Below, in pieces: positions 1,673-29,066 of a stretch of DNA of 29,153 bases (position 1 is the stretch's first letter; the number at the start of each line of letters is the position of its first letter). Source of the DNA: a virus. The stretch lies in the IMG/VR virus record IMGVR_UViG_3300007960_008811, positions 1-29,153 of that record; one strand, written 5' to 3'. The position numbers and the translations under genes were made by a program. The notes beneath the pieces were generated by a model. It was not told the origin of the DNA and ran no database searches. It worked only from the letters and a program-made list of their open reading frames with translations.

Positions 1673-1680
1673 GCTGTTAA

Positions 1681-5691: not shown

Positions 5692-5703
5692 GATAGTATT
5701 ATA

Positions 5704-10262: not shown

Positions 10263-10267
10263 TCATT

Positions 10268-10300
10268 CTCCTTGTGTTTTAATTACTGGGTATTTAAATA
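10268..10300. promoter_or_regulatory. Divergent intergenic region with palindrome TATTTAAATA
   Basis: This 47-base gap separates the two diverging gene blocks. The sequence TATTTAAATA at 10291-10300 is a perfect palindrome, so it presents the same TTTAAATA element to both strands, close to a sigma-70 -10 box and to the TATAAATA late-promoter element of T4-like phages. On the plus strand it would place a start site at or just before ATG 10310; on the minus strand it leaves about 20 bases of leader with AAGGAG (complement at 10268-10273) before ATG 10262. No clear -35 box is visible in either direction. Confidence 0.45.
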
Positions 10301-10309
10301 GTTTTTAAT

Positions 10310-14401: not shown

Positions 14402-14402
14402 A

Positions 14403-15771: not shown

Positions 15772-15776
15772 TCAAC

Positions 15777-16508
15777 TTACCAACCGCCATCGTCTTCTGC
15801 AATTTTTTGCTCAACGGTTTTGGTCAAAGTTGACTTGTATTCACGTTCCGCATCTCGCCATTCTTGGGCGTATGGTACATCCTGTAGATGCTCGAACCAT
15901 GGTCCACCTTCTGTGTAGTGCAACATCTTTGGTTCACCGTCTTCTGGCGATTCGTACCAGTCAGTCAACCAATTCCATTCGTGTGATATCTCGCCTATCT
16001 CATGATCTCCCAACCATACAAATCTATGATGCCACAAACCATCGTTGGTATTGAGTGCATTAAGATCTAAAAGTTTATTAGAAGGATGTTCGCAGTTCCA
16101 TAACACACAGGATGACCAATTCTTCCTTGGGTATATGGTTTGCGTTTTGCCATCCATTTTGGTTGTGGTGTTGGGTGTGTAGTCATGCTTGGCCACCATC
16201 ACCGCATAGTTGTCATTGGCTTGGTTAAACAACTCTTTGATATCTGTGAGACATAAAAAATCACAGTCAATGAACAATGCCCAACCCTTGTAACCTGTCA
16301 GCATGGGCACAAAGAAACGTGAGAATGTGAACTCTGTGGATGCTTTGGCATCAACATCACGAGTGTAAACACCAAGTTCTTTGAGTGTTGGTAATTTGAG
16401 TGGATATACTTTTACATCGGGATTGTGTTTTTGTATTGAATGTTTGGCAACTTGGTAGGCAATGTCCTCCCTTGAATCCCAGCCAACGAAAACTTTCATG
16501 TCCATCAT
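15777..16508 (-). CDS. Glycosyltransferase with DCD metal motif (GT8-like)
   Basis: A 243-residue protein starting MMDMKVFVGWDSREDIAY, whose ATG overlaps the HAD gene's TGA (ATGA). It has STEFTFSRFFVPML, GWALFIDCDFLCLTDI with the D-C-D metal site, YPRKNWSSCVLWNC and WNWLTDWY, followed by MLHYTEGGPWF. This motif set marks a widespread family of short GT8-related transferases that are abundant in marine alphaproteobacteria and their phages. The donor is unknown. It follows the HAD nucleotidase-like gene and two tRNAs and precedes the sulfotransferase in the same leftward unit. Confidence 0.85.
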   Translation of the reverse strand: MMDMKVFVGWDSREDIAYQVAKHSIQKHNPDVKVYPLKLPTLKELGVYTRDVDAKASTEFTFSRFFVPMLTGYKGWALFIDCDFLCLTDIKELFNQANDNYAVMVAKHDYTPNTTTKMDGKTQTIYPRKNWSSCVLWNCEHPSNKLLDLNALNTNDGLWHHRFVWLGDHEIGEISHEWNWLTDWYESPEDGEPKMLHYTEGGPWFEHLQDVPYAQEWRDAEREYKSTLTKTVEQKIAEDDGGW

Positions 16509-17083
16509 GTCTTGTTTATATAGTAATAGATTTGTTGCCAATTGTCAACTTTGGTAACCCTTGGATCATCCATGTAAGCGTTGAACTCGTGTTTCATCAA
16601 CACAGATTTTAATCCCATGTCCGCACCAAGCACAGCATTTGTGAATTTGTCTTCTACCCACACATAACCAGAATCCTTCCATGGCAACAGTGCTTGATCT
16701 TTGTCAGCCCCCGTGGACAAACAGATAACTTGCTCCCATACATCTCCGTACAAGTCTTGTAAATTTTGTTCTCTGAGTTTGTGGCTATATTTGTCTGTGT
16801 GCATAGAAGTGATGGCAATAAATCGCCAGCCTTCATGTCCGAGTTTTTTTATCACTTCCACAGAATCTCTCAATGGTTCGAGATATCTCATCCAAGCACT
16901 CATGTTAAAATGCCATGTGAGTGTTTTCATTTGCTCTCTGGTTCCTTCCCACCTTAAGTGAGCAGTGTACTGAGTCGGATCCTTTACTTTAATTTTGTAG
17001 TGTTGTTCTAAAAATTGATCAAAACCTTTTGCCCAATCCAGTATAACACCATCTACGTCTGTTAGTATTATTTTTTCTTTCAT
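16505..17083 (-). CDS. HAD-family phosphatase, 5'-nucleotidase-like
   Basis: A 192-residue protein. Motif I is KIILTDVDGVILDW with nucleophile Asp9 and Asp11; motif II is FIAITSMHT; motif III/IV is WKDSGYVWVEDKFTNAVLGADMGL, with the acidic E-D. This is the arrangement of small C1-cap HAD hydrolases annotated in T4-like cyanophages as 5'(3')-deoxyribonucleotidase-like, which could act in nucleotide recycling; a sugar phosphatase role cannot be excluded. The leader upstream contains a purine-rich AAAGAGAAAAA before the ATG and a G/C-rich double hairpin, which may affect its translation. Confidence 0.75.
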   Translation of the reverse strand: MKEKIILTDVDGVILDWAKGFDQFLEQHYKIKVKDPTQYTAHLRWEGTREQMKTLTWHFNMSAWMRYLEPLRDSVEVIKKLGHEGWRFIAITSMHTDKYSHKLREQNLQDLYGDVWEQVICLSTGADKDQALLPWKDSGYVWVEDKFTNAVLGADMGLKSVLMKHEFNAYMDDPRVTKVDNWQQIYYYINKT

Positions 17084-17131: not shown

Positions 17132-17218
17132 TGGTACGCCCGGTGAGACTCGAACTCACAATTGCCCAGAGGGTCACACAATCGAGTTGTGCCTGTCTAA
17201 CCATTCCAGCACTGGCGC
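17132..17218 (-). tRNA. Type-II tRNA with long variable arm, isotype uncertain
   Basis: An 87-base RNA with encoded CCA. Acceptor stem GCGCCAG pairs with CGGGCGT (G-U closing pair, one A-G mismatch), D stem CTG/CAG with loop GG, T stem GTGAG/CTCAC with loop TTCGAGT, and a variable hairpin CCC-TCT-GGG. The D arm (TGCTGGAATGGTTAGACAGG) and discriminator A look like tRNA-Leu. At canonical positions the loop is CTCGATT, giving anticodon CGA (Ser) with U at position 37 and an A-G pair at 31-39; a better-paired stem gives loop ACTCGAT, anticodon TCG (Arg). None is a Leu anticodon. It could be mis-evolving, a recoding tRNA or a decaying gene. Confidence 0.75.
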
Positions 17219-17241
17219 ACTATTATTGTAACATCTTTTTT

Positions 17242-17316
17242 TGGCATCTCCTACGGGAATCGAACCCGTGTCTTCACCGTGAAAGGGTGATGTCCTAACC
17301 GCTAGACGAAGGAGAC
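17242..17316 (-). tRNA. tRNA-Glu (anticodon TTC)
   Basis: A 75-base cloverleaf with encoded CCA. Acceptor GTCTCCT pairs with AGGAGAT (discriminator G), anticodon stem TCACC/GGTGA with loop CTTTCAC (anticodon TTC, reading GAA and GAG), T arm ACGGG-TTCGATT-CCCGT. All stems are well paired. It starts 2 bases downstream of the 88-residue gene's stop and is 23 bases from the next tRNA, so it is probably cut out of a longer leftward transcript. Confidence 0.95.
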
Positions 17317-17585: not shown

Positions 17586-18164
17586 CTACTCGATTGAACA
17601 AACCAAATGGATCCTGTCGATCTGACTGGCATTGATAGCTGTGTGCAGAGGCAAAGTGTCGGTGTGCCACCATGTGTTTGCCTGCATGTGTTTGACCTCA
17701 TCACCTATGATCATCAAACAACCTTCCGCTGTGATTATGGGATAATGCACACGGGTGTTTTCATCGTTGTGCCAACTCAAACAAGTTTTAGGTTTCATCT
17801 TCATTAATCTAATTCTGCCCAAACTTTTTCCATACTTTGTTTTTACAGAGTTGTACACTTCTTCAAACATGGTGTGTTTGAATTGACTGCACAATTGAGT
17901 GAAATCACTTTCCTTTTTTGGTTCAGCAAGTTCTGGAACTATTCTTTCCATACTACCATCATCTTTTTTAATTCTATATGAATTTGCCCAATCGTATGTG
18001 AGGCTGCCAGTTCCGTATTCATAATCATCTGGTCTTTCGGGAATGGTGTTTATACAAATGCTGTTGTTTGTATTCCAATGAATTAATTTTTTATCTAATA
18101 ATCTATTGAGATCTGAGTTTAAATCTAAAATAGGAAGATCTTTGATTGGTGTAAAGTGACTCAT
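17586..18164 (-). CDS. Aspartyl/asparaginyl beta-hydroxylase-like 2OG-Fe(II) oxygenase
   Basis: A 192-residue protein with the fold and motifs of Asp/Asn beta-hydroxylase-like oxygenases. CLSWHNDENTRVHYPI places the iron ligands at His132-x-Asp134 and the Arg that binds 2-oxoglutarate nearby; LPLHTAINASQIDRIHLV gives the distal His174 and a further Arg184. The AspH family hydroxylates protein side chains or small molecules with O2 and 2-oxoglutarate. It is the only such gene in the leftward unit; seven other 2OG-type genes sit on the other strand. It lies 12 bases downstream of the TonB receptor. Substrate unknown. Confidence 0.8.
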   Translation of the reverse strand: MSHFTPIKDLPILDLNSDLNRLLDKKLIHWNTNNSICINTIPERPDDYEYGTGSLTYDWANSYRIKKDDGSMERIVPELAEPKKESDFTQLCSQFKHTMFEEVYNSVKTKYGKSLGRIRLMKMKPKTCLSWHNDENTRVHYPIITAEGCLMIIGDEVKHMQANTWWHTDTLPLHTAINASQIDRIHLVCSIE

Positions 18165-18176
18165 TGTGCATACTTA

Positions 18177-19985
18177 TCAAAACAAATATTTGAGAGATAT
18201 GGAAAAAGTTCTTTCTGGCTGTTTGTAACCATATGGCCTTTCAAAATCTAAGTTGGTGACATTTTCTATCGATGCTTTGATCAATAAATTATCATCCACA
18301 AGATAATCAGCACCCACATTTGTGAAATGTTGATATTCTCTGTCTACGGTTGTATATGTGGTTGGATGGATGTCTCTGTGCTTGCCATAATATTGCCAAT
18401 CATACCAAATATTAAGTTTGTCGTTTATCTGATGGTCAAGTCCTATGTTTGCCTGCCACCATGGTCTCCTTGTCATTTGTGTGTTGGTAGAATCCTGCGC
18501 CGAAACATACATCAATCCTATCTTCAGTGATGAATTGTCCACTTGTGTCCTGCTAGAAAAATCCCATCCATTTATTTTCGTTTTGCCATCTGTGTCATTG
18601 GTGTATGTTGAATTTGAGTAATTAATTTGATCTGTTATTTCAGTGGTGAAGAACATGCTTTTGCTTTCGAAAGTGTACCATTTATCTTGCGTGTATGTTT
18701 TAATACCTATCTCGTATGTCACTGCTTTTTCTTCTTTGAGGTCTGGGTTACCGGTGTATCCAAAATTGTCTGCGCCATACATTTCGTACAGTGTGGGTGC
18801 TTTGTAACCTGTGCTTGTACCGGCCACCAATGTCATTATATCATTAAGTTTGTAACTACTACCCAACCTGTATGTTGACACAGGATCGTGCAAAGTATTC
18901 CAATCTCGTCTGACGCCGCCATTTATCACAAACTTGTTGTATTCCCAATCAGCATTGATGAATGTGGCATAATTTTCTGCTTTTTTGTCGACACTTGAAT
19001 TGTATGATCCTCTGTTTTCAAACTGAGCAGAATAAAATTGTAGATCAGTGCCTATTGTGTAATCTACACTGCCCACCGCATCTGTGTAACTTACCACAGT
19101 GTGTTTGTTGTCACTGTTATAATCATCTATTTCAGCACCGTTGACATATTGTCTGTCATGGACACCATAATCGGCTACCCAGTTCCAATTATTTCCTTCG
19201 TATCGCATTTGGTAAAAATAAAATTTTGCATCGCTGGTGTAATCTGCATCATCAACTCCACTGCCATCTAATTCAGTTTCTGAATTCCTGTACACTATTG
19301 TTGACTTCAACATGCCATTGTTTACAAAGTGCTCTGAATCAAAATTTAATGTTTGATAAAAATAGCCATCCTTGTCTCCACCCTTGACCACCGAGTAACC
19401 GTCCGATTCGTCTTGTGTTGCCTTGATAGAGTAACTGCTTGAGTTGTTCCACCATCCCTTGTTTACATTGATGCCTTTGGTATTGTTCGATCCATGTGTG
19501 AGTGTGGCCTCATCTGTGACTGTTGGTGCTGTGTTGATGTTGACGGCACCACCTATGGCACCACTGCCAAAAAATGTGCTCTGAGATCCTTTGTAAACAT
19601 CGATACCTATGGAATATTCTACCGGATCGATGCCAGCATCGAATAATCCATTTGTGGTTGAGTGATCAGTGATGGGCGAACCATTTATCAAAAATAATGT
19701 GTGATTAGAATTTGTTCCTCTGGTGAACACAGACGTCTGTTGTCCTTTGCCGCCTGATCGTATTGAAGTGATTGATGAATTGGTGTTTAGCACATCGCCA
19801 ATCACAAAAGAGTTTGAATTATTCTTAGGCCAAACTGTGTCAACATTTACCGTGGATGTGCTTAACCCTGTTGGATAAAGCCATTGGACGGGTATTGTTA
19901 TTTCAAGTTCTGCTTTGGCGGAAAAAGTAGATATAACTGTTGAAAAAATTAATATCAGTTTCAGTAGTGTATTTTTCAATGACAT
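18177..19985 (-). CDS. TonB-dependent outer-membrane receptor, BtuB-like
   Basis: A 602-residue outer-membrane channel for energy-driven uptake of scarce ligands. The N-terminal signal peptide is MSLKNTLLKLILIFSTVIS with cleavage likely after SAKA (about residue 25). The plug follows: VFTRGTNSNHTLFLINGSPI, IDPVEYSIGIDVYKGSQST and FFGSGAIGGAVNI are the conserved plug motifs. The rest is a beta-barrel of alternating aromatic strands ending in SLKYLF with C-terminal Phe, the Bam sorting signal. The short length (about 600) and VYKGSQS pattern resemble BtuB-type cobalamin receptors, but the ligand is unproven and no cobalamin riboswitch can fit upstream. The start overlaps the upstream membrane gene by 83 bases. 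A TonB receptor would be exceptional in a phage. Confidence 0.9.
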   Translation of the reverse strand: MSLKNTLLKLILIFSTVISTFSAKAELEITIPVQWLYPTGLSTSTVNVDTVWPKNNSNSFVIGDVLNTNSSITSIRSGGKGQQTSVFTRGTNSNHTLFLINGSPITDHSTTNGLFDAGIDPVEYSIGIDVYKGSQSTFFGSGAIGGAVNINTAPTVTDEATLTHGSNNTKGINVNKGWWNNSSSYSIKATQDESDGYSVVKGGDKDGYFYQTLNFDSEHFVNNGMLKSTIVYRNSETELDGSGVDDADYTSDAKFYFYQMRYEGNNWNWVADYGVHDRQYVNGAEIDDYNSDNKHTVVSYTDAVGSVDYTIGTDLQFYSAQFENRGSYNSSVDKKAENYATFINADWEYNKFVINGGVRRDWNTLHDPVSTYRLGSSYKLNDIMTLVAGTSTGYKAPTLYEMYGADNFGYTGNPDLKEEKAVTYEIGIKTYTQDKWYTFESKSMFFTTEITDQINYSNSTYTNDTDGKTKINGWDFSSRTQVDNSSLKIGLMYVSAQDSTNTQMTRRPWWQANIGLDHQINDKLNIWYDWQYYGKHRDIHPTTYTTVDREYQHFTNVGADYLVDDNLLIKASIENVTNLDFERPYGYKQPERTFSISLKYLF

Positions 19986-20388
19986 GTTTTAATATTATAT
20001 GAAAAATTACAGTACTTGTCAATGTGTTGACGAAGAAAGGAATGGCCGCCAAATAACAGGCCAATAAACCTTCTATGCTGTATCCATACCAACCCGAAGT
20101 CCAAACACCGAAATTAGTGATTGTAAAAAAAATCAAACTGGATATGATCGGACCTTTCTGTAGATATGCTATGACAAACAATGATGCGTACACCCATATC
20201 ATAAAATTGTGCCAACCCAAAAATACATCTGTAAACATGTAAGTCAACAGTGCTGGCAATAAAGAGTAGTGTCCACCCAAACTGAAAATCGCCAACACCG
20301 GAGTGAAGTTCGGCGGATGTGGTAAAAATCTTGAAATTAAAATTAAGAATAGTAGGAATACGTAGACATGATTAATTCTGTTCGTCAT
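19903..20388 (-). CDS. DUF6580-like integral membrane protein, putative transporter
   Basis: A 161-residue hydrophobic protein with about five membrane segments. RFLPHPPNFTPVLAIFSLGG, MFTDVFLGWH, FFTITNFGVWTSGWYGYS and CYLAAIPFFVNTL match the DUF6580 family, whose members resemble S components of ECF transporters and frequently neighbour TonB receptors. It would supply the inner-membrane step for the ligand taken up by the receptor, which follows it with an 83-base overlap. The C-terminal tail after residue 135 (KHVIEKYTTETD) is polar and longer than usual. The ATG sits where the divergent promoter's start site is predicted (leaderless). Confidence 0.8.
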   Translation of the reverse strand: MTNRINHVYVFLLFLILISRFLPHPPNFTPVLAIFSLGGHYSLLPALLTYMFTDVFLGWHNFMIWVYASLFVIAYLQKGPIISSLIFFTITNFGVWTSGWYGYSIEGLLACYLAAIPFFVNTLTSTVIFHIILKHVIEKYTTETDINFFNSYIYFFRQSRT

Positions 20389-20429: not shown

Positions 20430-20458
20430 TTGACAGATAGCACCTAAAATTGTATTAT
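20430..20458 (+). promoter_or_regulatory. Sigma-70 promoter for the oxygenase gene block
   Basis: TTGACA (20430-20435) and TATTAT (20453-20458) are separated by 17 bases. The start site is expected near 20465, giving a 5' leader of only about six bases before ATG 20471. It is the only clear promoter for the rightward block to the window end, where all genes then overlap or abut. Confidence 0.8.
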
Positions 20459-20470
20459 ATAAGTACCTCT

Positions 20471-21085
20471 ATGTACAGCGAACTTTTATCTTTTGGCGAT
20501 TTCATCAAGTTGGATTATTATATCGAATGCCATAAACTTTTGGCTGAGATAGAACCTTTCGAATGGCACAAGTATAATCCAAGGAAACAAATACCGAGAT
20601 ATGGATTGAGCGTCACCAGTCTAACTGGTGAGAGAGATGGTATCGATCTTGATTCTCTGTATGAATACAACAAGGAACACAACACAGAGTACACTGAATT
20701 AGATTTTAAAACAAAAACAGATGTGTACCATGCCAGCGAAGAAACAAGGAAAGCAGTTGCACCATTTGATGCACACATCTCACGCACCCACTTTCTTAAA
20801 CTTGGAGCAGGAGGATATTTTCCGGCACATCGAGATTGGAGACATTTGAATGTACAAACAAGTTTTCGAGTGTTGGTGCCGATTAAAAATTGTAATCCAC
20901 AAGACATGTATTTCATCTATGACGGCAAAATACTAAATTTTCAACACGGATTTCCTTACTTTTTGAACACCAACAAAGAACACTGCTTGTTTTCGCTTTC
21001 GGGAAACAGTATAATGTTAGTACTTAATGTAGAATGTAACAAAGAAACGTTAAATACAGTTATAGAGAGGATGGCATCAAGATGA
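20471..21085 (+). CDS. 2OG-Fe(II) oxygenase-like protein (AspH-like fold)
   Basis: A 204-residue protein starting MYSELLSFGDF at ATG 20471; the in-frame TTG at 20450 lies inside the promoter and is rejected. HFLKLGAGGYFPAHRDW holds the iron ligands His120-x-Asp122, and NKEHCLFSLSGNSIMLVLNV the distal His171; SFRVLVPI contains the Arg/hydrophobic core before it. This double-stranded beta-helix pattern is that of small Asp/Asn hydroxylase-like oxygenases common in marine phages and bacteria. First gene of the rightward block. Overlaps the desaturase by ATGA. Substrate not identifiable. Confidence 0.75.
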   Translation: MYSELLSFGDFIKLDYYIECHKLLAEIEPFEWHKYNPRKQIPRYGLSVTSLTGERDGIDLDSLYEYNKEHNTEYTELDFKTKTDVYHASEETRKAVAPFDAHISRTHFLKLGAGGYFPAHRDWRHLNVQTSFRVLVPIKNCNPQDMYFIYDGKILNFQHGFPYFLNTNKEHCLFSLSGNSIMLVLNVECNKETLNTVIERMASR

Positions 21086-21756
21086 TCGAATGGTTAATTG
21101 TAATATTCATAGGTATTTTATGGTCCCAGATTATTTCACATTGGGGAGCATCTATTCTATTACACAGACACTATTGCCACAAGCAATTTAAAGTGCCGGG
21201 GTGGTTTGAAACCATAGGTTTGGCCATGTTGATGATTGCCTGTATCAGAACGCCGATTGGTTGGATAGCATCACACAGGATGCATCATGTCCATTCAGAT
21301 ACAGAACATGATCCACACTCTCCTAAGTATGTAGGTTTTTGGAAAGTGCTGTCGACAACATGGGAAATTCCAAGGATACCGATTAGATACGCAAGAGATT
21401 TGTACAAAAATCCTAAACTTGTTTTTTGTCACAATCATTGGGGGAAAATTCTAATTGGTGCTAACATTGTTAGCTTCCTAATTCATCCATATTTTTGGGT
21501 GGCGTTTTGTGTGGTTCCTTTTATCTTTGCAAAGATAGGCTTTGGATTGCTCAACACAGTTGGTCATTCAAAAGGTCCAAGCAATGTAGCATGGCTCAAT
21601 CTTTTTATTGCTGGTGAAGGATATCATAAAAATCATCATGATAATTTTAGAAGAATCAGATTGCACAAGTGGGACACAGGCGGTTGGATTGCAGAAAAAT
21701 TTTTCAAAAACTATGGACAAAAAACAAACACTTCTAAATCAGTCGTTAGCAGTTAG
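21082..21756 (+). CDS. Fatty acid desaturase (stearoyl-CoA desaturase-type)
   Basis: A 224-residue membrane di-iron desaturase. The three His boxes are complete: HRHYCH at 28-33, HRMHH at 65-69 and YHKNHH at 181-186, with GLLNTVGH before the last. Hydrophobic helices flank the first box and lie at about 122-150. This is the delta-9 acyl desaturase family (acyl-CoA or acyl-lipid). The usual 290-330 residues are trimmed, mainly in the C-terminus. ATG overlaps the previous TGA. In this block it may desaturate a lipid or an acyl chain of a small molecule rather than bulk membrane lipid; that is inference. Confidence 0.9.
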   Translation: MIEWLIVIFIGILWSQIISHWGASILLHRHYCHKQFKVPGWFETIGLAMLMIACIRTPIGWIASHRMHHVHSDTEHDPHSPKYVGFWKVLSTTWEIPRIPIRYARDLYKNPKLVFCHNHWGKILIGANIVSFLIHPYFWVAFCVVPFIFAKIGFGLLNTVGHSKGPSNVAWLNLFIAGEGYHKNHHDNFRRIRLHKWDTGGWIAEKFFKNYGQKTNTSKSVVSS

Positions 21757-22498
21757 AACTTTTCCACTCGACGAAGTCAAAAAAATATGTGATGAGTTTT
21801 TTCTTGAAAATCATTACGAAGTTTCTAAACCTTACTCAAAAATAAGTGATTGGCTCAAGCCGATTGTTGATCTTTCAGAGTTCAAACATTTCTATCCTGC
21901 CAATGGAGTAACAGAAGGCTTGAATTATTGGATGATGCAAGAGCAAAGAAAGATACAGACAAAATCTGGAGAATATGCATGGGTAGAAGGGCATGAGACA
22001 GGCGACATGTATTACATCAGTTGTCCGAGTTCCGTAGATGGAAATTTTTGTGAAATACCCACAGACAAACCTGTGGTGTTGGACCTTGCTTACATAGGTT
22101 CCACTGCAATTAAAAGTTTACACATTCCAGACAATGTTGAAAAAGTTTTCTTTTCTCTCAGCAAAAGTTTGGGCCTTAGAAATTACCGAATTGGTTATTA
22201 CTGGTCCAGACATTCAGATCCAATGTTAGAAAAATTAATCTATTCTGCCAAATATTACAATTATCATTCTTTTGCTTTAGGTGAAAAGATAATAGAACAA
22301 ATCCCTGTCAACTTTGTGTATGATAAATTGAGTCCTATTCAGCATGATTTGTGTAAAGAATTAGACCTTACACCAAGTGATTCATTATGGTTGGCTACAA
22401 CCACAGATCAAGCATATAATAAGTTTAAGCGAGCAAATACTAATCGTATTTGTTTGAGTAATCTAATCGAAAGTGCATACAATGATAGAAGCATATAG
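21713..22498 (+). CDS. Miniature PLP-dependent aminotransferase (fold type I)
   Basis: A 261-residue protein beginning MDKKQTLLNQSLAVRTFPLD. VFFSLSKSLGLRNYRIGYYW is the PLP lysine motif of class I/II aminotransferases (Lys151 in S-x-S-K-S-x-G, Arg159), LDLAYIGS supplies the Asp124/Tyr127 pair and GVTEGLNYW the phosphate-helix start. Canonical enzymes are about 390 residues, so the N-terminal arm and much of the small domain are missing. Either an unusually compact transaminase or a degenerate PLP protein. The start was chosen at ATG 21713, overlapping the desaturase by 44 bases; the longer reading frame from 21608 would lie deep in the desaturase and is unlikely. Confidence 0.75.
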   Translation: MDKKQTLLNQSLAVRTFPLDEVKKICDEFFLENHYEVSKPYSKISDWLKPIVDLSEFKHFYPANGVTEGLNYWMMQEQRKIQTKSGEYAWVEGHETGDMYYISCPSSVDGNFCEIPTDKPVVLDLAYIGSTAIKSLHIPDNVEKVFFSLSKSLGLRNYRIGYYWSRHSDPMLEKLIYSAKYYNYHSFALGEKIIEQIPVNFVYDKLSPIQHDLCKELDLTPSDSLWLATTTDQAYNKFKRANTNRICLSNLIESAYNDRSI

Positions 22499-23306
22499 AT
22501 CCACACAAAAAATACAGGACTTTTCTGACAATGATCTTTTGGATCTTGCAAATAAAATCCATAAACAAGGAGTAGCAGTTTTTTACGATCAAAAACTTGA
22601 GATGGGCGACCTTGTTGATATCTGTAAGCGATTTGGTGAGTGTGAAACTCCTAATCTCTTTATGAATCCTACAGAACATCCTGAAATTTCTTTGGTGACA
22701 GGCAAACGCAAAGACGACGGTCAGAAAATAGGTATGTTTGGGGACACAGAATTAGGGTGGCATTCAAATGGCAACTCGAGGCATTTGATCGACAAAATTT
22801 TAATTAGTTTGTATTGTGTTGAGGAAGACATCAACACAACTTTAAGTGTGTGTCATACATCTAAACCTTTCTATGACATGAGTACGGATGAACAAGAATA
22901 TTGGAAATCTATCAAGATACGTTTAAAGTTTGTAAACAACACAGTGTACAGTTTGGAAGAAGGAGATCCTGAACTGGAATTTATGAGCAAACACAAGGGC
23001 AGTATCCGTGGGTTGGTCGATCAGCATCCACACACAGGTGATTACTATTTTTATTTTCCATATCATTTTATAATTGGTGCATGGGAAGGCACCAAAAAAA
23101 TTGATCATACAGAGATTATTGACAAGTTGATGCCAAAAATTTTCCAATCAAAATATCAATATCATCATATATTCAAAAAGGGCGACTTATTACTGATGGA
23201 TCAGTTCACAAGTTTACACCGACGCACTCCTGTAATGGACAAGGAAAGACTGTTATGGAGAGTCGCCAGTGATTTTAAAAGGATACACCATGAACAAAAA
23301 TCTTGA
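22482..23306 (+). CDS. TauD/TfdA-family 2OG-Fe(II) oxygenase with HSN triad
   Basis: A 274-residue protein with the TauD-type architecture. The N-terminal part has KIHKQGVAVFYDQKLEMGDL and CKRFGECE; ELGWHSNGNSR (about residue 94) takes the place of the H-x-D iron motif; DQFTSLHRRTPV holds the distal His and ERLLWRVASD the Arg that binds 2-oxoglutarate. In canonical members the middle residue is Asp or Glu; here it is Asn, which could reduce or alter iron binding. The ATG at 22482 is chosen over a GTG at 22473. It overlaps the preceding gene by 17 bases and the next by 17. Substrate unknown. Confidence 0.8.
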   Translation: MIEAYRSTQKIQDFSDNDLLDLANKIHKQGVAVFYDQKLEMGDLVDICKRFGECETPNLFMNPTEHPEISLVTGKRKDDGQKIGMFGDTELGWHSNGNSRHLIDKILISLYCVEEDINTTLSVCHTSKPFYDMSTDEQEYWKSIKIRLKFVNNTVYSLEEGDPELEFMSKHKGSIRGLVDQHPHTGDYYFYFPYHFIIGAWEGTKKIDHTEIIDKLMPKIFQSKYQYHHIFKKGDLLLMDQFTSLHRRTPVMDKERLLWRVASDFKRIHHEQKS

Positions 23307-23868
23307 AAGATATCTATACAAAGCCCAATTCATAACTCCGCAAAAAGCAGATGAAGTTAGGAATGTCTTAGATACAGAAACTACCTGGGTAGACTTTGAT
23401 TACAAGGGTCCTGAAAATATTTGTGTGCAGGACAATCCACAGATTCCTTATCATGTCACTGAATTAGGGTTAGAACACCAAATGACAAAGTATTTAGAAA
23501 CACAGATCGATCGTGTTGTTAACGATTATATACACAACTATTTGCAGGACATAACTTGGTTCACATACTGGAATGGTAAGACACGATTCTACTATATCAG
23601 ATATCCAACCGGATCAGATGGCATGGGAACTCATGCCGATCACGTGAGAAACATCTTCGACGGAACCAGGCGAGGCATACCAACTCTTACAGTGTTAGGA
23701 TCATTGAGTGACGAGTACGAAGGTGGAGATATAGTATTTTGGCAAGACACTCCTAAACGATTAAAAAAAGGAGAAATTTTTATTTTTCCTTCGATATTTT
23801 TGTACCCGCATGAAGTAACACCTATCACAAGTGGCACAAGATATTCGTTCGCTGTATGGATATGGTAG
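23290..23868 (+). CDS. Prolyl-4-hydroxylase-like 2OG-Fe(II) oxygenase
   Basis: A 192-residue protein starting MNKNLERYLYKAQFITP. RYPTGSDGMGTHADHVRN carries iron ligands His115-x-Asp117; EGGDIVFW and GEIFIFPS are the standard strands; YPHEVTPITSGTRYSFAVWI provides His174 and the 2OG-binding Arg184. This is the P4Hc layout of small phage and bacterial prolyl-4-hydroxylase-like enzymes. All catalytic residues are intact, so it should be an active oxygenase. Substrate unknown; a protein or amino-acid hydroxylation is typical for the family. Confidence 0.85.
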   Translation: MNKNLERYLYKAQFITPQKADEVRNVLDTETTWVDFDYKGPENICVQDNPQIPYHVTELGLEHQMTKYLETQIDRVVNDYIHNYLQDITWFTYWNGKTRFYYIRYPTGSDGMGTHADHVRNIFDGTRRGIPTLTVLGSLSDEYEGGDIVFWQDTPKRLKKGEIFIFPSIFLYPHEVTPITSGTRYSFAVWIW

Positions 23869-24506
23869 ACAAAAATATCCCTTGGCCAACTATTAATGAT
23901 CAGACATCTGAGTTTGTTAACGTCCCTCTGATAGAAAACTACAAGTTTTCCGACATGTGGTATCTTGATACCAAACAGGCCAAACCACTATTTGAAAAAC
24001 AAGCGGACATCATCATAGCAAAACAGTGCAAAGGCATCATTGATGTTGGATGCAGACATGGACCTGTGAATGCAATACTGCATGAAAAAGGATACACAGA
24101 TTATAGGTACATGGGTTTTGATACATCTGTAGAACCAATTGATTTGGCCAAGCAACAATGGGCGCAGTTTCCTAACATAGAATATAGGAATGCTTCATGG
24201 CATGACAAAAAAAGTATTTTGGTTGATTTTGATGTAGACCAAGTGATATGGAGTGGCGTGCTGATATACCAACCAGACAAACATCATCAAGTATTTCATG
24301 ACATCACTGTGGATTTGTACAACAGCAAAAATGCAATCATCGCCGAAGTTTATCATGATCAAAAATACAAGGAAGATAGGCTCCTATTAAATACCATTAC
24401 ACACGAAATGGATCAATACACACAGAAATATTCTCAAGTTGATCAAACTCTTTTAGATTGTGAAATATTTTCTGGAAGGAGACTTGTTCTTGACATTACG
24501 ATATAG
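23856..24506 (+). CDS. Class I SAM-dependent methyltransferase
   Basis: A 216-residue protein with motif I GIIDVGCRHGPVNAIL, an acidic GFDTSVEPIDLAKQQ strand 2, and a D-Q-V-I-W-S-G-V motif IV-like segment followed by a Tyr. It is a small-molecule-type Rossmann methyltransferase. The start may be ATG 23856 or ATG 23862; both overlap the previous stop. Lying between two oxygenases, it could methylate their product. No family more specific can be claimed. Confidence 0.75.
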   Translation: MDMVDKNIPWPTINDQTSEFVNVPLIENYKFSDMWYLDTKQAKPLFEKQADIIIAKQCKGIIDVGCRHGPVNAILHEKGYTDYRYMGFDTSVEPIDLAKQQWAQFPNIEYRNASWHDKKSILVDFDVDQVIWSGVLIYQPDKHHQVFHDITVDLYNSKNAIIAEVYHDQKYKEDRLLLNTITHEMDQYTQKYSQVDQTLLDCEIFSGRRLVLDITI

Positions 24507-24552
24507 AATAGAAAAAAGGAAAGTTGATGTCAGCAAAAGGAAATACGTCAAC

Positions 24553-25269
24553 ATGGATCCACACAACGATCGACCAGATTATGATCATCTTCAAATTCAC
24601 GATCAGTATGTTGGTTACAGAGATGCATTCTATACACCCATTGATATGCCAAAGATTGAAGTTGATCTTGATCATATAGAATCACTTTGGTCCGATCCAA
24701 CTATGGAAAAAGGCACAACCGCAGGAACTATTGCTGTTGGCAAAGTTTTGTTTTTGAAGATGAACATGTTTACATACGTGGACGGCAATCCTCCTTGGTA
24801 CGCATGGGCAAAAAGTGAAATACCTCACATTTGCGATTTCATCGACCAACTACCATTCAAATCTATAAGGCAGTGTGCATTTGTGCAACCACCAGATGTT
24901 ACACCACCACACTACGATGAACCCATCACAATGACTCCACACTTGAGAGACAGTGCGCCTTCGCAGTACAGGATAAGATGGAGCAGGGTTACTGACAAAG
25001 ACAATGAAATATTTTACATGAGCAAAGATTCAGGAGCCACGAAGATATATCCTGTATTGCCCGACGAGACGAACACATATGTCTATGATGGATCTGTATG
25101 GGAACATGGCACAGATTGTGGATTTAAAATGAGCGAAAGAGCATTGATAGTCATGTCAGGAATATTAGACATACCAAAACATCACGACCTGTTGGAAAGA
25201 TCTATTAACAAGTACAAGGATTATGTTTTGCATGACAAAGAATTTGAACATACCATATCTCAAAGTTAA
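24553..25269 (+). CDS. 2OG-Fe(II) oxygenase-like protein, 238 aa
   Basis: A protein starting MDPHNDRPDYDHLQIHDQYV at ATG 24553, preceded by AAAAGGAAA at good spacing; a GTG at 24460 in frame is the less likely longer start. PPDVTPPHYDEP gives His120-x-Asp122, WEHGTDCGFKMSERALIV gives His185 and Arg196, all spaced as in AspH/P4H-like oxygenases. The long N-terminal extension (about 90 residues) is rich in Asp and aromatic residues and unlike the other copies. The 46-base gap before the start is one of the few real gaps in this block. It overlaps the next gene by 38-47 bases. Confidence 0.7.
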   Translation: MDPHNDRPDYDHLQIHDQYVGYRDAFYTPIDMPKIEVDLDHIESLWSDPTMEKGTTAGTIAVGKVLFLKMNMFTYVDGNPPWYAWAKSEIPHICDFIDQLPFKSIRQCAFVQPPDVTPPHYDEPITMTPHLRDSAPSQYRIRWSRVTDKDNEIFYMSKDSGATKIYPVLPDETNTYVYDGSVWEHGTDCGFKMSERALIVMSGILDIPKHHDLLERSINKYKDYVLHDKEFEHTISQS

Positions 25270-25948
25270 TCTCACAGTACCTGTATTAGACATTTGCGAT
25301 GAGGCCACCCACTTACTTGAAAACAATATGTATGAACCTCATAGATCAGATGACGGCCATGGCTGGAATGTTTTCACTCTGTTTGGCGAGGGAGAGTACA
25401 TAACCATCGGGGGTAACTGGGGAGATCCTGCAAAATACCATTGGACCAAACTTGCTGAAAAGTATTGCCCAAAAACTGTCGAGTGGTTAAAAAGTTTGCC
25501 TTACACAGAAATTTATAGAGCGAGATTTATGTTTTTAGAACCACAGGGACACATTAAGATACACCATGACAAAGAGCCTAATGAGACTTTAGGACACACA
25601 GTTGTGGACGATGCTATGAACATAGCAATCAAACATCCACAAGGATGTTACATGAGGCAAGTCTACAAAGATCATTACAATGAAGTCCCGTTTGATGATG
25701 GCACTGTATTTTTCTTTAATAACCGGTACTTTCATTATGTTTACAACAATAGCACCCAAACAAGAATACACATGATAATCCATGCAAAATGGTTGCCCTT
25801 GCACACCGAATATACTAAGATAAATTTGATAGAAAAAAATTATTTAGACCATGAAGAATTTGCATATTCGAACAACGCATGGAACAACAAGGAAGCATTA
25901 AATGAAAAAATCTCAGCATATACACCAGACCTGTCTTATCATTGTTGA
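25232..25948 (+). CDS. Aspartyl/asparaginyl hydroxylase-like 2OG-Fe(II) oxygenase
   Basis: A 238-residue protein starting MTKNLNIPYLKVNLTVPVLD. EIYRARFMFLEPQGHIKIHHDKE supplies His111-x-Asp113; FFFNNRYFHYVYNNSTQTRIHMIIH gives His168 and Arg178; the N-terminal WNVFTLFGEGEY and the W-L-K-S-L-P segment are typical of the AspH-like group. A start three codons upstream at ATG 25223 is possible. Both starts overlap the preceding gene. All iron ligands are present. Substrate unknown. Confidence 0.75.
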   Translation: MTKNLNIPYLKVNLTVPVLDICDEATHLLENNMYEPHRSDDGHGWNVFTLFGEGEYITIGGNWGDPAKYHWTKLAEKYCPKTVEWLKSLPYTEIYRARFMFLEPQGHIKIHHDKEPNETLGHTVVDDAMNIAIKHPQGCYMRQVYKDHYNEVPFDDGTVFFFNNRYFHYVYNNSTQTRIHMIIHAKWLPLHTEYTKINLIEKNYLDHEEFAYSNNAWNNKEALNEKISAYTPDLSYHC

Positions 25949-27140
25949 AAATTTAAGTCAACACGGAGATCATTTTGAAATAGGTGCGTGCCAAAATTAT
26001 ACCAGCAGTATGATTTATGAACTTCAAAACAAAGTGCCTGAGATGGTCATCCAAACGGTTGCTTCATATGACGAGGCAATGACCCATTTTGATAAGCACA
26101 AATATATTTTTGTTTCGTCAATTGGCAATTACATAGAGTGGTACAACTTTAGTTACATCATTGATAGGATGGCCCAAGAAGATCTTGCATTGGTTGGGCA
26201 CATCTTACACAAGCGTGGATATTATGAGATACATGATCAAGTTTTTGTCATTGATGTAGAAAAATGGAAACAGGCAGGCAGTCCACATATAAGAAAATCT
26301 GTCAAAGATAAAGCGTGTGCTATTGAGAGAGATCCGGACAACATTCATCATGATTATACCCCAAAATGGATCAAAGCTGATCAAAACTCACTTGCACAAC
26401 CTTACAAGATTCCTGTTGATGGCATGTTCCTTGGTTCTCATTTGATATCGGAATTTGCCCGTCATAATTTAAAAATATCCGCATTCAACAGTCTTGAAAG
26501 GAAACACAAGTATTATCTTTATGGAGGAACAGAATGGTTTTATCCAGCACTGTTCATGTCTGAAAGTTATGCATTTTGCAACGAACCATTGGAAAGAATG
26601 GTCGATGAAATGCCAAATGATATCCAACAGTATTTTGGCATAGCCAGTCCTTATTACATATTGGCACTGTCCTATAAAAATCCTGCCTGCAAAGATTGGT
26701 ATATTTTTGATAACAATCATATACAATTATTGTACTGCAAATGGGTGTTAGAAAAATTGCCAACATTTGATTATGATGTGAGAAATACACTGTCTGCATT
26801 CCTAAGAGAATATCCATGGATTAAATCCAAGGATTTTGAATCTATCGACACTAACCCGTATTTGAAAAAAATTGTTGATTACACACAAAAATTATTGAAG
26901 CCTTATGACTTAGGGAAAATAAATTACATCGAACAAAACATATGGGTGGATCAAAAGATCAATATTCAAAACAAACCAACTCTTGCATACACATCGAACG
27001 TGTTCAGATATCAACCGGCGAGCAAATGGATGCCTTTGTCAAAACAAAAACAGGCAGAAATTAGTTTTTTAAATATTCTAAAAAACAATCCTAATGTACA
27101 CACGATTGTGAATGATATGAAAACTGAAAGGATAAGGTAA
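25902..27140 (+). CDS. Conserved protein of unknown function, 412 aa
   Basis: A large soluble protein starting MKKSQHIHQTCLIIVENLSQ with no signal peptide or membrane segment. YIEWYNFSYIIDRMAQED then LALVGHILHKRGYYEIHDQVFVIDVEKWKQAGSPH, and DGMFLGSHLISEFARHNLKI are recognisable blocks; the G-H-I-L-H motif and the stretch through DVEKW recall GT-A glycosyltransferase cores (display of a G-H-I with a strand and a W), but no DXD motif is clear. It may be a glycan-related enzyme; I cannot assign a function. The start ATG 25902 overlaps the preceding gene by 47 bases and the stop shares one base with the next ATG (TAATG). Confidence 0.6.
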   Translation: MKKSQHIHQTCLIIVENLSQHGDHFEIGACQNYTSSMIYELQNKVPEMVIQTVASYDEAMTHFDKHKYIFVSSIGNYIEWYNFSYIIDRMAQEDLALVGHILHKRGYYEIHDQVFVIDVEKWKQAGSPHIRKSVKDKACAIERDPDNIHHDYTPKWIKADQNSLAQPYKIPVDGMFLGSHLISEFARHNLKISAFNSLERKHKYYLYGGTEWFYPALFMSESYAFCNEPLERMVDEMPNDIQQYFGIASPYYILALSYKNPACKDWYIFDNNHIQLLYCKWVLEKLPTFDYDVRNTLSAFLREYPWIKSKDFESIDTNPYLKKIVDYTQKLLKPYDLGKINYIEQNIWVDQKINIQNKPTLAYTSNVFRYQPASKWMPLSKQKQAEISFLNILKNNPNVHTIVNDMKTERIR

Positions 27141-27955
27141 TGCAGTTGCATTGTTTTGGGGACTCGAATATTTGGGGGGATGAGCAACCTAACTGTACAA
27201 TTGGAATAAATTCACAACCCAGCAAAACTACCTTCCCCTACTATCTTGCAAAAAAATTGGGTATAGAAACTGTGTACAATCATGCTGTTTCAGGAGGATC
27301 ATTGCAGTTGGTCGCTGACAGTCTACTTTTTAACTTTTTACCAAAAAATCATTCTCATGATGATATTGTGATAGTATACCTTCCCAATTGTTCGAAATAC
27401 TCATTTGTAACAAATGATAGAAAAGAGTATAACAGCGTTGAAGATATTATTAGATACCGTTTGAGGTCATGTGTTTATGACAATGAGTTGAAAAAAGACA
27501 CAGTGGAATGGATGATGAAGCATTTGTGGCATGAACAAGCTTTGTATTATAATGTGATAAAACATATCATTACTATCGATACTTTCCTAAAAGATTACAA
27601 CAATGTATTCTATTTTTGGAACACCAGGCATCATTTCAGCAGTTTTCGTAAAGGCCAAGACGGATTAGATTCGGAATTAAATTTTAGAAATGCTTGGTTT
27701 CCAACTGATGATCTCGCAGAGCCGTGCATAGGAAATAGCGTGTTTGATAAGGATATTATAGATCATGATAATCCCGCATTCGAGAGAATAAAAAATCGCA
27801 CAGTGGATTGGGACATTTTGTCGGTTTTCGATAGCATAAGCGACCAATTAAGTGTACATAAATACAAGCAGAAGCATCATGCACCACAAGTCCATGAGCA
27901 CTATGTTGATACGTTTTTGTATGAACATATTAAGGAGAAATTAAATGTCGATTGA
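27140..27955 (+). CDS. SGNH/GDSL-like hydrolase, phage-type
   Basis: A 271-residue protein starting MQLHCFGDSNIWGDEQPNCT. The GDSN at 7-10 gives nucleophile Ser9; HAVSGGSLQLVAD holds the second-block Gly, DIVIVYLPNCSKYS the third-block Asn, and QKHHAPQVHEHYVDTFL a His-rich end where the catalytic His is expected. These features match the SGNH fold used by esterases and acyl-transferases. Compared with the 210-residue homologue at 3361 it has a longer insert between blocks III and V. It lies between a large unknown gene and two 2OG oxygenases, so an ester-cleaving or acylating step in the same pathway is plausible. Confidence 0.65.
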   Translation: MQLHCFGDSNIWGDEQPNCTIGINSQPSKTTFPYYLAKKLGIETVYNHAVSGGSLQLVADSLLFNFLPKNHSHDDIVIVYLPNCSKYSFVTNDRKEYNSVEDIIRYRLRSCVYDNELKKDTVEWMMKHLWHEQALYYNVIKHIITIDTFLKDYNNVFYFWNTRHHFSSFRKGQDGLDSELNFRNAWFPTDDLAEPCIGNSVFDKDIIDHDNPAFERIKNRTVDWDILSVFDSISDQLSVHKYKQKHHAPQVHEHYVDTFLYEHIKEKLNVD

Positions 27956-28541
27956 AAGTCCTATTGTTAACGATTACGTGATTGAGTTACCACAACTTAT
28001 TGATTTATTGCCAACGCCGGATGAAGTGCTTGCAATGAAATCTTCCAAAGTTGATGTGGTTGATCCGGAATATACTTCTGCATGGGACGGCCAAAGATGG
28101 TATTTGATCACAGACAATGATAAAAGCAATAGTGTAATCAGTAAATTCAATGCTGGTCACATGACTTCGTATCCTGAAGTATGGTTGGTGGAAAAAGAAG
28201 CCGGCAAATGGATACGTCCACACATCGACACAGACAGATTGGTTGTTTTGATTTATCCTATAGTACCTTCATCATACGATATTCAATTCACAGACAAATG
28301 GGAAGGTGACAACAATTTCTTTTTTAGGTCATATGAAAACACGACTCCATATGATTACAATGTGTTGCACACTCACACATACACATGTCCAACTCTACTA
28401 AACAGTAAAATTCCACACTGTCTTCCTTCCGAGGCGGCAAAGACAACATTCCAAATTTCATTATATTTTGGTTATGACGCCTGTTCAGATTGGGCGGGGA
28501 TTGTCAACACTTACAACAGCGGTGATTTGATCACACTTTAA
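27945..28541 (+). CDS. 2OG-Fe(II) oxygenase-like protein, tandem copy 1
   Basis: A 198-residue protein starting MSIESPIVNDYVIELPQLID. WLVEKEAGKWIRPHIDTDRLVVLIYPI carries His93-x-Asp95; HTHTYTCPTLLNSKIPHCLP gives distal His158; KTTFQISLYF replaces the usual R-x-S strand with K-T-T. It is a close paralogue of the next gene: both show W-L-M/V-x-K, P-H-x-D, L/M-x-x-P-I, T-Y-x-C-P-T-x-x-N-S-x-x-x-H-C and F-Q-I-S. The ATG overlaps the preceding stop by 11 bases. Substrate unknown. Confidence 0.75.
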   Translation: MSIESPIVNDYVIELPQLIDLLPTPDEVLAMKSSKVDVVDPEYTSAWDGQRWYLITDNDKSNSVISKFNAGHMTSYPEVWLVEKEAGKWIRPHIDTDRLVVLIYPIVPSSYDIQFTDKWEGDNNFFFRSYENTTPYDYNVLHTHTYTCPTLLNSKIPHCLPSEAAKTTFQISLYFGYDACSDWAGIVNTYNSGDLITL

Positions 28542-28547
28542 TTTTCT

Positions 28548-29066
28548 ATGTACAATGATTTTGTCATAGAAGTCCCTCAACTTGCAAATTTATTTGATGA
28601 GGATGCTTTGTGGCAGGCATGCCAAACCAATCCGAATCATGACAACAAAAATTATGGAGTGAAGTGTTGGGAAGTCAAGCCAGACCAGCCAGAGGTAGAA
28701 CACATCTTTAAAATCATCAATCAAGACAAGTTATCACAACCGCTGATCGGATGGTTGATGTACAAGTACAAAGATGAATGGCTGAAGCCACATGTTGATG
28801 TTGGTAGAGATGCTATTCTTATGTTTCCTATTGAACCAAAAAATTACAAAATTTCTTTTTTGGATAACAAAGAGGATATGAACACCATTTACGAACACAC
28901 ATATGTTTGTCCAACAATTGTGAATTCTAACATCTTACATTGTGTGTATGATGAAGGCATTGAAAGGAAATTTTTCCAAATTAGTTTCTCTTTTGATAAC
29001 TGTGTGTGGGATGATGTCATAAAATATGTGTACAATGGACAACTATTCCATACGACTCTACAGTGA
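28548..29066 (+). CDS. 2OG-Fe(II) oxygenase-like protein, tandem copy 2
   Basis: A 172-residue paralogue of the preceding gene, starting MYNDFVIEVPQLANLFDED. GWLMYKYKDEWLKPHVDVGRD has His82-x-Asp84, HTYVCPTIVNSNILHCVYDEG has distal His131, and ERKFFQISFSF is the C-terminal strand. It is shorter in the middle loop (the region NNFFFRSYENTT of copy 1 is lacking). Iron-ligand positions are conserved. The two are separated by only 6 bases. Paralogy suggests a recent tandem duplication with divergence. Confidence 0.75.
   Translation: MYNDFVIEVPQLANLFDEDALWQACQTNPNHDNKNYGVKCWEVKPDQPEVEHIFKIINQDKLSQPLIGWLMYKYKDEWLKPHVDVGRDAILMFPIEPKNYKISFLDNKEDMNTIYEHTYVCPTIVNSNILHCVYDEGIERKFFQISFSFDNCVWDDVIKYVYNGQLFHTTLQ

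Follow-up and report, generated by a model that had tools for sequence, protein, structure and literature searches.

Organization of the locus

The window, meaning the whole stretch of viral DNA that was analysed (29,153 nucleotides), holds between positions 20471 and 29066 a run of 12 overlapping open reading frames in one direction (+), with overlaps of 1–47 bases between most neighbours. Seven of these 12 genes encode 2OG/Fe oxygenases, each backed by Pfam, profile or fold evidence. A 13th gene, GNAT-like and cut by the end of the contig, is counted with the cassette. The features are as follows.

17586-18164, − strand: eighth oxygenase, AspH family, in a divergent gene group (Pfam Asp_Arg_Hydrox, 3.5e-12)
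20423-20395, − strand: divergent promoter-like site, TTGACA-17-TACAAT (consensus scan, 11/12 matches)
20430-20458, + strand: candidate sigma-70-like promoter 5′ of the run, TTGACA-17-TATTAT (consensus scan, 11/12 matches)
20471-21085, + strand: g1, AspH-family 2OG/Fe oxygenase, 204 aa, core family
21082-21756, + strand: g2, SCD1-type membrane desaturase/hydroxylase, 224 aa, core (Pfam FA_desaturase, 3e-9)
21713-22498, + strand: g3, mini fold-type-I PLP aminotransferase-like enzyme, 261 aa, core
22482-23306, + strand: g4, TauD-family protein, 274 aa, core (Pfam TauD, 6e-20)
23290-23868, + strand: g5, prolyl-4-hydroxylase-like 2OG oxygenase, 192 aa (Pfam 2OG-FeII_Oxy_3, 1e-10)
23856-24506, + strand: g6, SAM-dependent methyltransferase, small-molecule type, 216 aa, core (Pfam Methyltransf_31, 3e-6)
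24553-25269, + strand: g7, 2OG oxygenase of an unnamed family, 238 aa
25223-25948, + strand: g8, AspH-family 2OG oxygenase, 241 aa (Pfam Asp_Arg_Hydrox, 1e-16)
25902-27140, + strand: g9, uncharacterised, 412 aa, conserved beside the g8 homologue
27140-27955, + strand: g10, possible SGNH/GDSL hydrolase, 271 aa, accessory
27945-28541, + strand: g11, AspH-like 2OG oxygenase, 198 aa
28548-29066, + strand: g12, 2OG oxygenase, g11 paralogue, 172 aa
29035-29153, + strand: g13, start of a GNAT-like gene after the cassette (39 codons)

An earlier note, made from the letters of the sequence, had described one packed, co-directional run containing seven oxygenases of AspH, P4H and TauD type with H-x-D...H or H-x-N iron-ligand motifs, and this description was confirmed. 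Its single clear promoter fared less well: the site at 20430-20458 stands, but promoter-like sites overall were not far above shuffled expectation in the consensus scan, and control of the whole run by one promoter is plausible. The longest of the cassette genes, g9, did not appear in the title of that note.

Strong purifying selection (dN/dS of 0.01–0.08) was observed wherever dS could be estimated, that is, for every gene except g12. The remainder of the window is rich in sugar genes (an epimerase, a GDP-mannose dehydratase-like protein, a DegT aminotransferase, glycosyltransferases, and sulfotransferase-like and AsnB-like proteins). Given that hallmark typing of the window and of the three relatives nearest to it found no gp23, neck or gp8 gene, the probable T4-like nature of the window is deduced from other carriers.

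Oxygenases of the cassette

The H-x-D/E...H iron triad is present in six of the seven oxygenases (g1, g5, g7, g8, g11 and g12), the exception being g4. Although g1 alone gave no Pfam match, 13 of the 15 members of its aligned family match Asp_Arg_Hydrox, and H120-x-D122...H171 is invariant across that alignment; its best solved relatives are a β-hydroxylase (7v4f) and L-proline cis-4-hydroxylase (4p7w). The assignment of g5 is reinforced by a match to PHROG 61, a 2OG-Fe(II) oxygenase family (8e-21). The start of g7 was taken as the ATG at 24553, a GTG further upstream at 24460 being possible. Pfam was without a match for g7, in which H-x-D...H is invariant. The g7 family showed no hhalign match to the AspH families or to the g11 families; therefore, its structure was predicted. 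The AlphaFold2 model (pLDDT 83) gave AspH, PHD2 and prolyl hydroxylases as its best PDB matches in Foldseek (E about 1e-4). The paralogues g11 and g12 are 31% identical and share the same motif (H93-x-D95...H158 in g11); a predicted double-stranded β-helix for both derives from hhalign comparison with the AspH-family profile (E 1e-5, probability 82). All seven proteins therefore have fold or family support for the double-stranded β-helix (direct Pfam matches of g4, g5 and g8, Pfam matches of family members in g1, a fold search in g7 and a profile match in g11 and g12). Homologues of the eighth oxygenase head the cassette in other phages, lying 5′ of the desaturase in L005, L007, L021 and L041.

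In g4, H-x-N...H replaces H-x-D...H, a substitution for which the earlier note had left room. H94-S95-N96...H246 is invariant in an alignment of 19 orthologues, and H-x-N rather than H-x-D occurs in 126 of 130 open reading frames of the family. Membership in the TauD sequence family stands, as judged from the Pfam profile, but the classical TauD/TfdA H-x-D/E...H triad is missing, and we make no claim of classical catalysis; the H-x-N site might have no activity, or one that is not oxidative. The nearest solved relative is the isonitrile-forming oxygenase ScoE (E 8e-7), which in contrast carries H-x-D in the alignment (WHADY). No other Sco pathway genes were seen at the cassette, and a literature search on the H-x-N motif returned nothing relevant. 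For enzymologists, the g4 family raises the question of whether a site with a natural Asn ligand is functional or performs different chemistry.

Desaturase, PLP enzyme and other proteins

The earlier reading of g2 as a complete tri-His-box desaturase was borne out. Its profile matches acyl-CoA desaturase 1 (5e-14), and the ten SCD1-type ligand positions (H28, H33, H65, H68, H69, N158, H162, H182, H185 and H186) are invariant among 20 sequences. The family thus has the three His boxes and the N-x-x-x-H ligand pair of mouse acyl-CoA desaturase 1 (SCD1) at a length of about 215–225 aa, compared with 339 in the mouse enzyme. By its metal ligands g2 is assigned as an SCD1-type membrane desaturase with a putative acyl-CoA or acyl-lipid substrate.

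No Pfam match was obtained for g3. Its AlphaFold2 model (pLDDT 90.8) matched the fold-type-I PLP enzymes Trp aminotransferase, HisC, CobD and alliinase in Foldseek (E 2e-8 to 1e-7), and N111, D124, K151, R159 and R245 are invariant in the family, these residues being equated with AspAT positions by motif and not by superposition. The model thus points to a fold-type-I PLP fold and site (Asn, Asp, Lys and two Arg) with predicted transaminase activity. Of the 261-residue PLP transaminase proposed earlier, the PLP fold and site hold; the Foldseek list also contains lyases and one decarboxylase, which leaves transaminase as one of several activities among its relatives. The site looks complete within only 261 residues, and g3 is accordingly of interest to enzymologists for the lower size bound of a fold-type-I PLP enzyme.

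The methyltransferase named in the earlier note corresponds to g6, which also has weak profile matches to phosphoethanolamine N-methyltransferase, ToxA, juvenile hormone acid methyltransferase and trans-aconitate methyltransferase. No homologue of g9 was found in Pfam, PHROGs, NCBIfam or PDB; in those relatives that have it (L090 and L094-L096) it sits 3′ of the g8 homologue. The SGNH hydrolase of the same note can be kept for g10 as a candidate, with a Lipase_GDSL match below the cut-off (E 0.02), but not as a core component, since g10 occupies its place in the cassette only in the nearest relatives. Both g9 and g10 are accessory genes of one subgroup, outside the conserved core. The 39 codons of g13 are 74% identical to a 200-aa GNAT-like protein of L004. 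This GNAT-like family, which is core in many relatives, matches Pfam Acetyltransf_1 weakly and below the cut-off (E 0.004) and has no PDB match.

Conservation of the cassette as a unit

Synteny was scanned from three separate anchors, the mini-aminotransferase, the TauD-type protein and the desaturase, which returned 38, 15 and 20 distinct phage clusters, respectively, most of them with the core. The recurrent core consists of the desaturase, the mini-aminotransferase, an AspH-type oxygenase, the TauD-type protein and the methyltransferase, often with the GNAT-like protein. Around the mini-aminotransferase, in the 38 clusters with enough flank, AspH was present in 100%, desaturase in 95%, TauD in 84%, methyltransferase in 82% and GNAT in 68%. 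Around TauD, the desaturase, aminotransferase, methyltransferase and AspH genes were present in 15 of 15 clusters and GNAT in 13, and around the desaturase (n = 20) AspH was found in 20, TauD in 19, methyltransferase in 17 and aminotransferase in 16. The order desaturase-aminotransferase-TauD occurred in 17 of the 38 mini-aminotransferase clusters and desaturase-aminotransferase-AspH in 7, gene order being kept though aminotransferase identity drops to about 30%.

The core proteins have correlated distance matrices (Mantel r 0.28–0.75); the values for TauD with the aminotransferase and desaturase (0.28–0.33) suggest that TauD has been exchanged more freely than the rest. Variable additions in relatives include extra 2OG oxygenases and FMN reductase, peroxiredoxin and radical-SAM genes. 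In some relatives radical-SAM/SPASM genes adjoin the cassette, and radical-SAM and PP-loop genes lie near some. The core contains no carrier protein, ligase or transporter, and no glycosyltransferase recurs in it. A search for plasmid carriage of the cassette gave no match. The synteny scans rule out chance or local co-location. Co-location is not confined to the window, and a fold or family assignment backs each of the seven oxygenases; both tests named in the earlier note thus came out in its favour, and the view of the cassette as one functional unit is strongly supported.

Possible function

Recurrence of the core across a diverse set of aquatic phages, numbering in the dozens, and in a few predatory bacteria very probably reflects a real, undescribed pathway that forms or modifies a small molecule or lipid during infection. 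More specifically, we give about an even chance to the proposal that the run is the form taken in one subgroup of a biosynthetic cassette that is conserved and independently exchanged among aquatic phages, at least some of them T4-like, and that during infection produces or alters a small molecule or lipid head group derived from an amino acid or amine. In its favour, the methyltransferase, TauD, AspH and aminotransferase families have nearest relatives, among solved or named proteins, that mostly use free small molecules (phosphoethanolamine, the ScoE substrate, L-proline and histidinol phosphate). The agreement of the three anchors, the conserved gene order, the correlated distance matrices, the purifying selection and the gene set of a Bacteriovoracaceae MAG also count for it. 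The enzymes would act in sequence on one substrate. Here, the 2OG oxygenases would hydroxylate or otherwise oxidise carbon atoms, the desaturase would work on an intermediate that is hydrophobic or bound to the membrane, the PLP enzyme could move or eliminate an amino group, possibly with 2-oxoglutarate/glutamate exchange, and the methyltransferase and GNAT-like protein would cap a product that is possibly membrane-associated. Our best guess for the role is a change in the envelope or the metabolite pool of the infected cell. The tailoring pathway suggested in the earlier note is consistent with these enzyme types at the level of protein families.

It is unlikely, though it deserves weight, that the cassette instead tailors polypeptides, above all tail fibres or virion proteins, by hydroxylation, methylation and acetylation, so tuning receptor binding or stability. 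The AspH and P4H folds are those of classic protein hydroxylases, and in Pelagibacter phage Mosig the end of the cassette adjoins genes for an S74 peptidase and tail fibres, within the VrlC-to-neck interval that passages of one study describe as the host recognition cluster (PMC7029224). Both observations also count against the small-molecule reading, as do the radical-SAM/SPASM neighbours in relatives, which are also compatible with a peptide or glycan as substrate. The absence of a carrier protein, ligase or transporter from the core and the doubt over oxidative activity of the H-x-N site weigh against it as well. By contrast, in other phages, among them G012 and G024, the cassette is not between VrlC and gp14 but tens of kb from the gp8-neck interval (the window is too short to be placed in this respect), and bacterial chromosomes carry the same set. 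To our knowledge, moreover, folded proteins are not the usual substrates of a membrane desaturase or a PLP aminotransferase-like enzyme.

Somewhat less probable still is decoration of a surface glycan or LPS, in which an amino sugar would be made, oxidised, methylated and acylated to alter phage receptors (superinfection exclusion) or virion glycans. Sugar genes dominate the window, and glycosyltransferases of the host recognition island are argued, in the passages found, to alter the host surface (PMC7029224); however, the recurrent core is without a glycosyltransferase, and sugar chemistry offers no evident role for a desaturase.

That unrelated auxiliary genes have piled up in a hypervariable island, their packing being island architecture and not one pathway, would agree with the freer exchange of TauD and with T4-like islands in general, which gather mixed genes, several 2OG oxygenases per genome being normal in cyanophages and pelagiphages (PMC3037559, PMC9599517). 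This explanation is already made unlikely, to the point of being improbable, by the reciprocal co-occurrence from three anchors, the gene order kept at 30–60% identity and the same set on bacterial chromosomes. Hypermodification of phage nucleic acid is very improbable: 2OG, methyltransferase, GNAT and PLP enzymes are known in DNA hypermodification, an overlap counted in its favour together with the radical-SAM and PP-loop genes near some relatives, but the cassette showed no hallmark of base modification, a membrane desaturase does not fit and the Bdellovibrionota cluster adjoins housekeeping genes.

Phages carry single auxiliary metabolic genes. A bolder form of the small-molecule or lipid reading, possible but doubtful, is that a widespread phage family has a complete new oxidative pathway whose product, formed during infection, is a small molecule or lipid of a new class, with a sub-minimal PLP enzyme and an iron enzyme with a natural 2-His-1-Asn site at its centre, and that this pathway is shared with predatory Bdellovibrionota. 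If true, marine viruses would run dedicated biosynthesis in infected cells by means of a multi-enzyme oxidative cassette that has no recognised counterpart, has stayed together in dozens of lineages and also occurs in predatory bacteria.

Comparison with known systems

Within the searchable literature, queries on the gene set, on phage-encoded biosynthetic clusters and on Bdellovibrio clusters returned nothing relevant, in agreement with the earlier note, whose author knew of no described system of this makeup. Individual genomes of T4-like cyanophages and pelagiphages encode several different 2OG oxygenases, often close together, but those of pelagiphages are paired with ferrochelatase, unlike the cassette, and the words desaturase and aminotransferase are absent from both reports (PMC3037559, PMC9599517).

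Related gene sets are present on Bdellovibrionota chromosomes. Those of MAG JAFMBV010000002 and its relatives share the desaturase, mini-aminotransferase, AspH, FMN reductase, F10 and methyltransferase with the phages, and their TauD is 56% identical with the same H-x-N; they differ in the chromosomal setting, a longer aminotransferase (about 290–330 aa) and the presence of radical-SAM/SPASM enzymes. A Bacteriovoracaceae MAG carries two desaturases, an aminotransferase, two AspH and two TauD proteins, FMN reductase, F10 and a methyltransferase, together with four more small genes resembling 2OG oxygenases; the whole set lies beside aro genes. Two Rha-like antirepressor genes near this cluster hint at mobility. 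Most Bdellovibrionota matches comprise only the aminotransferase with radical-SAM, sometimes with AspH. A phage-only origin is ruled out, L055-L057 and other Bdellovibrionota contigs carrying housekeeping genes beside family members (aro genes, EF-Tu, nrdAB and trpS, identified by reading open reading frames). Although its record places L054 under Paceibacter, this contig resembles phage DNA that was binned there, and it was left out of the bacterial carriers.

In pelagimyophages the VrlC-to-gp14 interval is a hypervariable "host recognition cluster" of tail fibres, glycosyltransferases and radical-SAM cassettes, within which the Mosig cassette falls; the passages found of that study do not describe the cassette and mention stearoyl-CoA desaturase only for freshwater fonsimyophages (PMC7029224). 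Mosig (EXVC030M; MT647606, Mosig_00072-00081) is the single isolate with the cassette, which its announcement does not discuss (PMC7892664). Since this cultured carrier exists, growing on Pelagibacter HTCC1062, the cassette is testable now. Like the window, Mosig has AspH, desaturase (77%), aminotransferase (58%), TauD (71%), methylase, GNAT and AspH in one run; it carries FMN reductase, peroxiredoxin and F10 where the window has P4H, g7, g8, g9, g10, g11 and g12.

Gene organization

The entire IMG/VR virus record is a linear fragment of 29153 bases, with the features listed here.

Features of the window (position, strand, description)
506-17083: large sugar/surface-modification cluster, with glycosyltransferase-like genes, an epimerase, a GDP-mannose dehydratase-like gene, a DegT aminotransferase, FkbM-like methyltransferases, a sulfotransferase-like gene and AsnB; most gene names come from reading ORFs
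1187-1762, minus: peroxiredoxin (Redoxin, 4e-23)
17132-17316, minus: tRNA genes, Ser(cga) and Glu(ttc)
17586-18164, minus: eighth oxygenase
18177-19985, minus: TonB-dependent receptor (Pfam, 1e-25)
19903-20388, minus: DUF6580 membrane protein (Pfam, 4e-23)
20471-29066, plus: twelve-ORF run, with overlaps of 1-47 bases between most neighbours
final 119 bases: start of a GNAT-like gene (first 39 codons)

A TTGACA-17-TATTAT sequence (11 of 12 consensus matches) lies upstream of the twelve-ORF run, and a similar site faces in the opposite direction. Given that the GNAT-like start at the 3' edge is 74% identical to the gene at the same position in a relative, the cassette extends beyond the contig end. 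The peroxiredoxin fits the profile of one located within the cassette of other phages. The genes for the TonB receptor, the DUF6580 protein and an AspH enzyme form a divergent group that is kept in near relatives and is complete in both of the two that reach far enough. Top matches to the receptor in the phage collection were vitamin B12 receptors on bacterial-looking records, and it also matched a PHROG of unknown function; an outer-membrane receptor encoded by a phage is unusual.

Enzymes of the run

Direct Pfam matches identified g4 as TauD, g5 as 2OG-FeII_Oxy_3 and g8 as Asp_Arg_Hydrox. In the g1 family, Asp_Arg_Hydrox was matched by 13 of 15 aligned members and H-x-D...H was invariant. 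No family match was found for g7, which kept H-x-D...H in an alignment of 12 sequences; its AlphaFold2 model (pLDDT 83) gave human AspH, PHD2 and prolyl hydroxylases as top matches (E ~1e-4, TM-scores ~0.4). The paralogues g11 and g12 both carry H-x-D...H and match the AspH profile (E 1e-5). Taken together, Pfam, family, fold and profile support bear out the seven oxygenases counted in the run by the earlier note.

The TauD-type protein g4 has H-S-N...H, as do all 19 aligned orthologues (65-75% identity). H-x-N was present in 126 of 130 homologous TauD-type ORFs and likewise in the Bdellovibrionota homologues. Among characterised enzymes of the TauD fold, none is known to carry Asn naturally at this position, and one literature search found none.

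The short desaturase retains all ten SCD1-type ligand positions (nine His and one Asn), invariant across 20 sequences, and its profile matched acyl-CoA desaturase 1 (5e-14). For the 261-residue mini-PLP enzyme, g3, no convincing match was found in Pfam, PHROG or NCBIfam; its model (pLDDT 91) matched Trp aminotransferase, HisC, threonine-phosphate decarboxylase and alliinase (E 2e-8 to 1e-7). By motif, its invariant residues N111, D124, K151, R159 and R245 can be equated with those that bind PLP in aspartate aminotransferase; the enzyme may act as a transaminase, a lyase or a decarboxylase. The methyltransferase most closely, if weakly, matched small-molecule enzymes.

Conservation and distribution

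The conserved gene unit is real. Full order is kept in three near relatives, and L090, a locus from a more distant phage (aminotransferase identity 36%), carries homologues of the desaturase, aminotransferase, AspH, TauD, P4H and methyltransferase together with g7, g8, g9, g11 and g12, nearly in the order of the window. Viral contigs were scanned with a mini-aminotransferase profile, the best 80 of 126 relatives were kept, and loci were clustered at 95% identity and searched with own-built profiles. The 38 clusters with enough flank contained AspH (38), desaturase (36), TauD (32), methyltransferase (31) and GNAT (26); the AspH figure is partly background, since these phages commonly carry AspH-like genes. 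TauD-anchored clusters held desaturase, aminotransferase, methyltransferase and AspH in 15 of 15, and desaturase-anchored clusters held AspH in 20 of 20, TauD in 19, methyltransferase in 17 and aminotransferase in 16. Distances of the core proteins were correlated across loci, and dN/dS was 0.01-0.08 in all comparisons with unsaturated dS, g12 being left out.

Pelagibacter phage EXVC030M (Mosig) was the sole carrier among 50,697 phage records. Its cassette lies inside the VrlC-to-neck interval, with tail-fibre genes on one side and a sugar/radical-SAM group on the other. In two other phage records (G012 and G024) the cassette is outside the gp8-neck interval and thus has no fixed tie to tail fibres. 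T4-like gp23 was present in 6 of 23 viral records. The phage cassette (TauD 71%) also occurs on an 8.6-kb GTDB contig filed under Candidatus Paceibacter, a placement that is probably a binning error.

Related genes are also chromosomal in Bdellovibrionota, where a Bacteriovoracaceae MAG contains nearly the full gene set with adjoining aro genes. Within this bacterial version are four consecutive ~176-aa genes with H-x-D-like motifs, a 593-aa radical-SAM protein, a PP-loop/AsnB-like gene and an HTTM-like membrane protein; two Rha-like antirepressor genes lie nearby. The mini-aminotransferase (E <1e-15) was detected in ~17 of 369 Bdellovibrionota genomes, usually alongside radical-SAM genes and sometimes AspH, and was not found on any plasmid. 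Bdellovibrionota homologues of ~290-330 aa, amid several radical-SAM/SPASM enzymes and sometimes AspH, seem to represent a bacterial cluster type of their own that has not been described.

Proposed function and known systems

Judged by the types of enzyme present, a single substrate would be oxidised, desaturated, altered at an amino group, methylated and perhaps acylated. For each enzyme taken singly, the closest relatives of solved structure mostly use free amino acids, amines or small acids, and the desaturase would place one step in a membrane or hydrophobic setting. On this basis a pathway for a small molecule or a lipid head group is favoured, with roughly even chances of being correct. 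The main rivals are tailoring of proteins, which is unlikely by comparison, and tailoring of glycans, which is slightly less likely still. How the steps are ordered, what they act on and how the phage gains from them are inferred.

No description of this gene set was found in the literature. The cassette can be filed as a phage auxiliary or biosynthetic cassette. Comparable systems already known are the sets of 2OG oxygenases in cyanophages and pelagiphages (PMC3037559, PMC9599517) and, in pelagimyophages, the host recognition cluster (PMC7029224); the relevant passages on these systems do not describe the present combination of genes.
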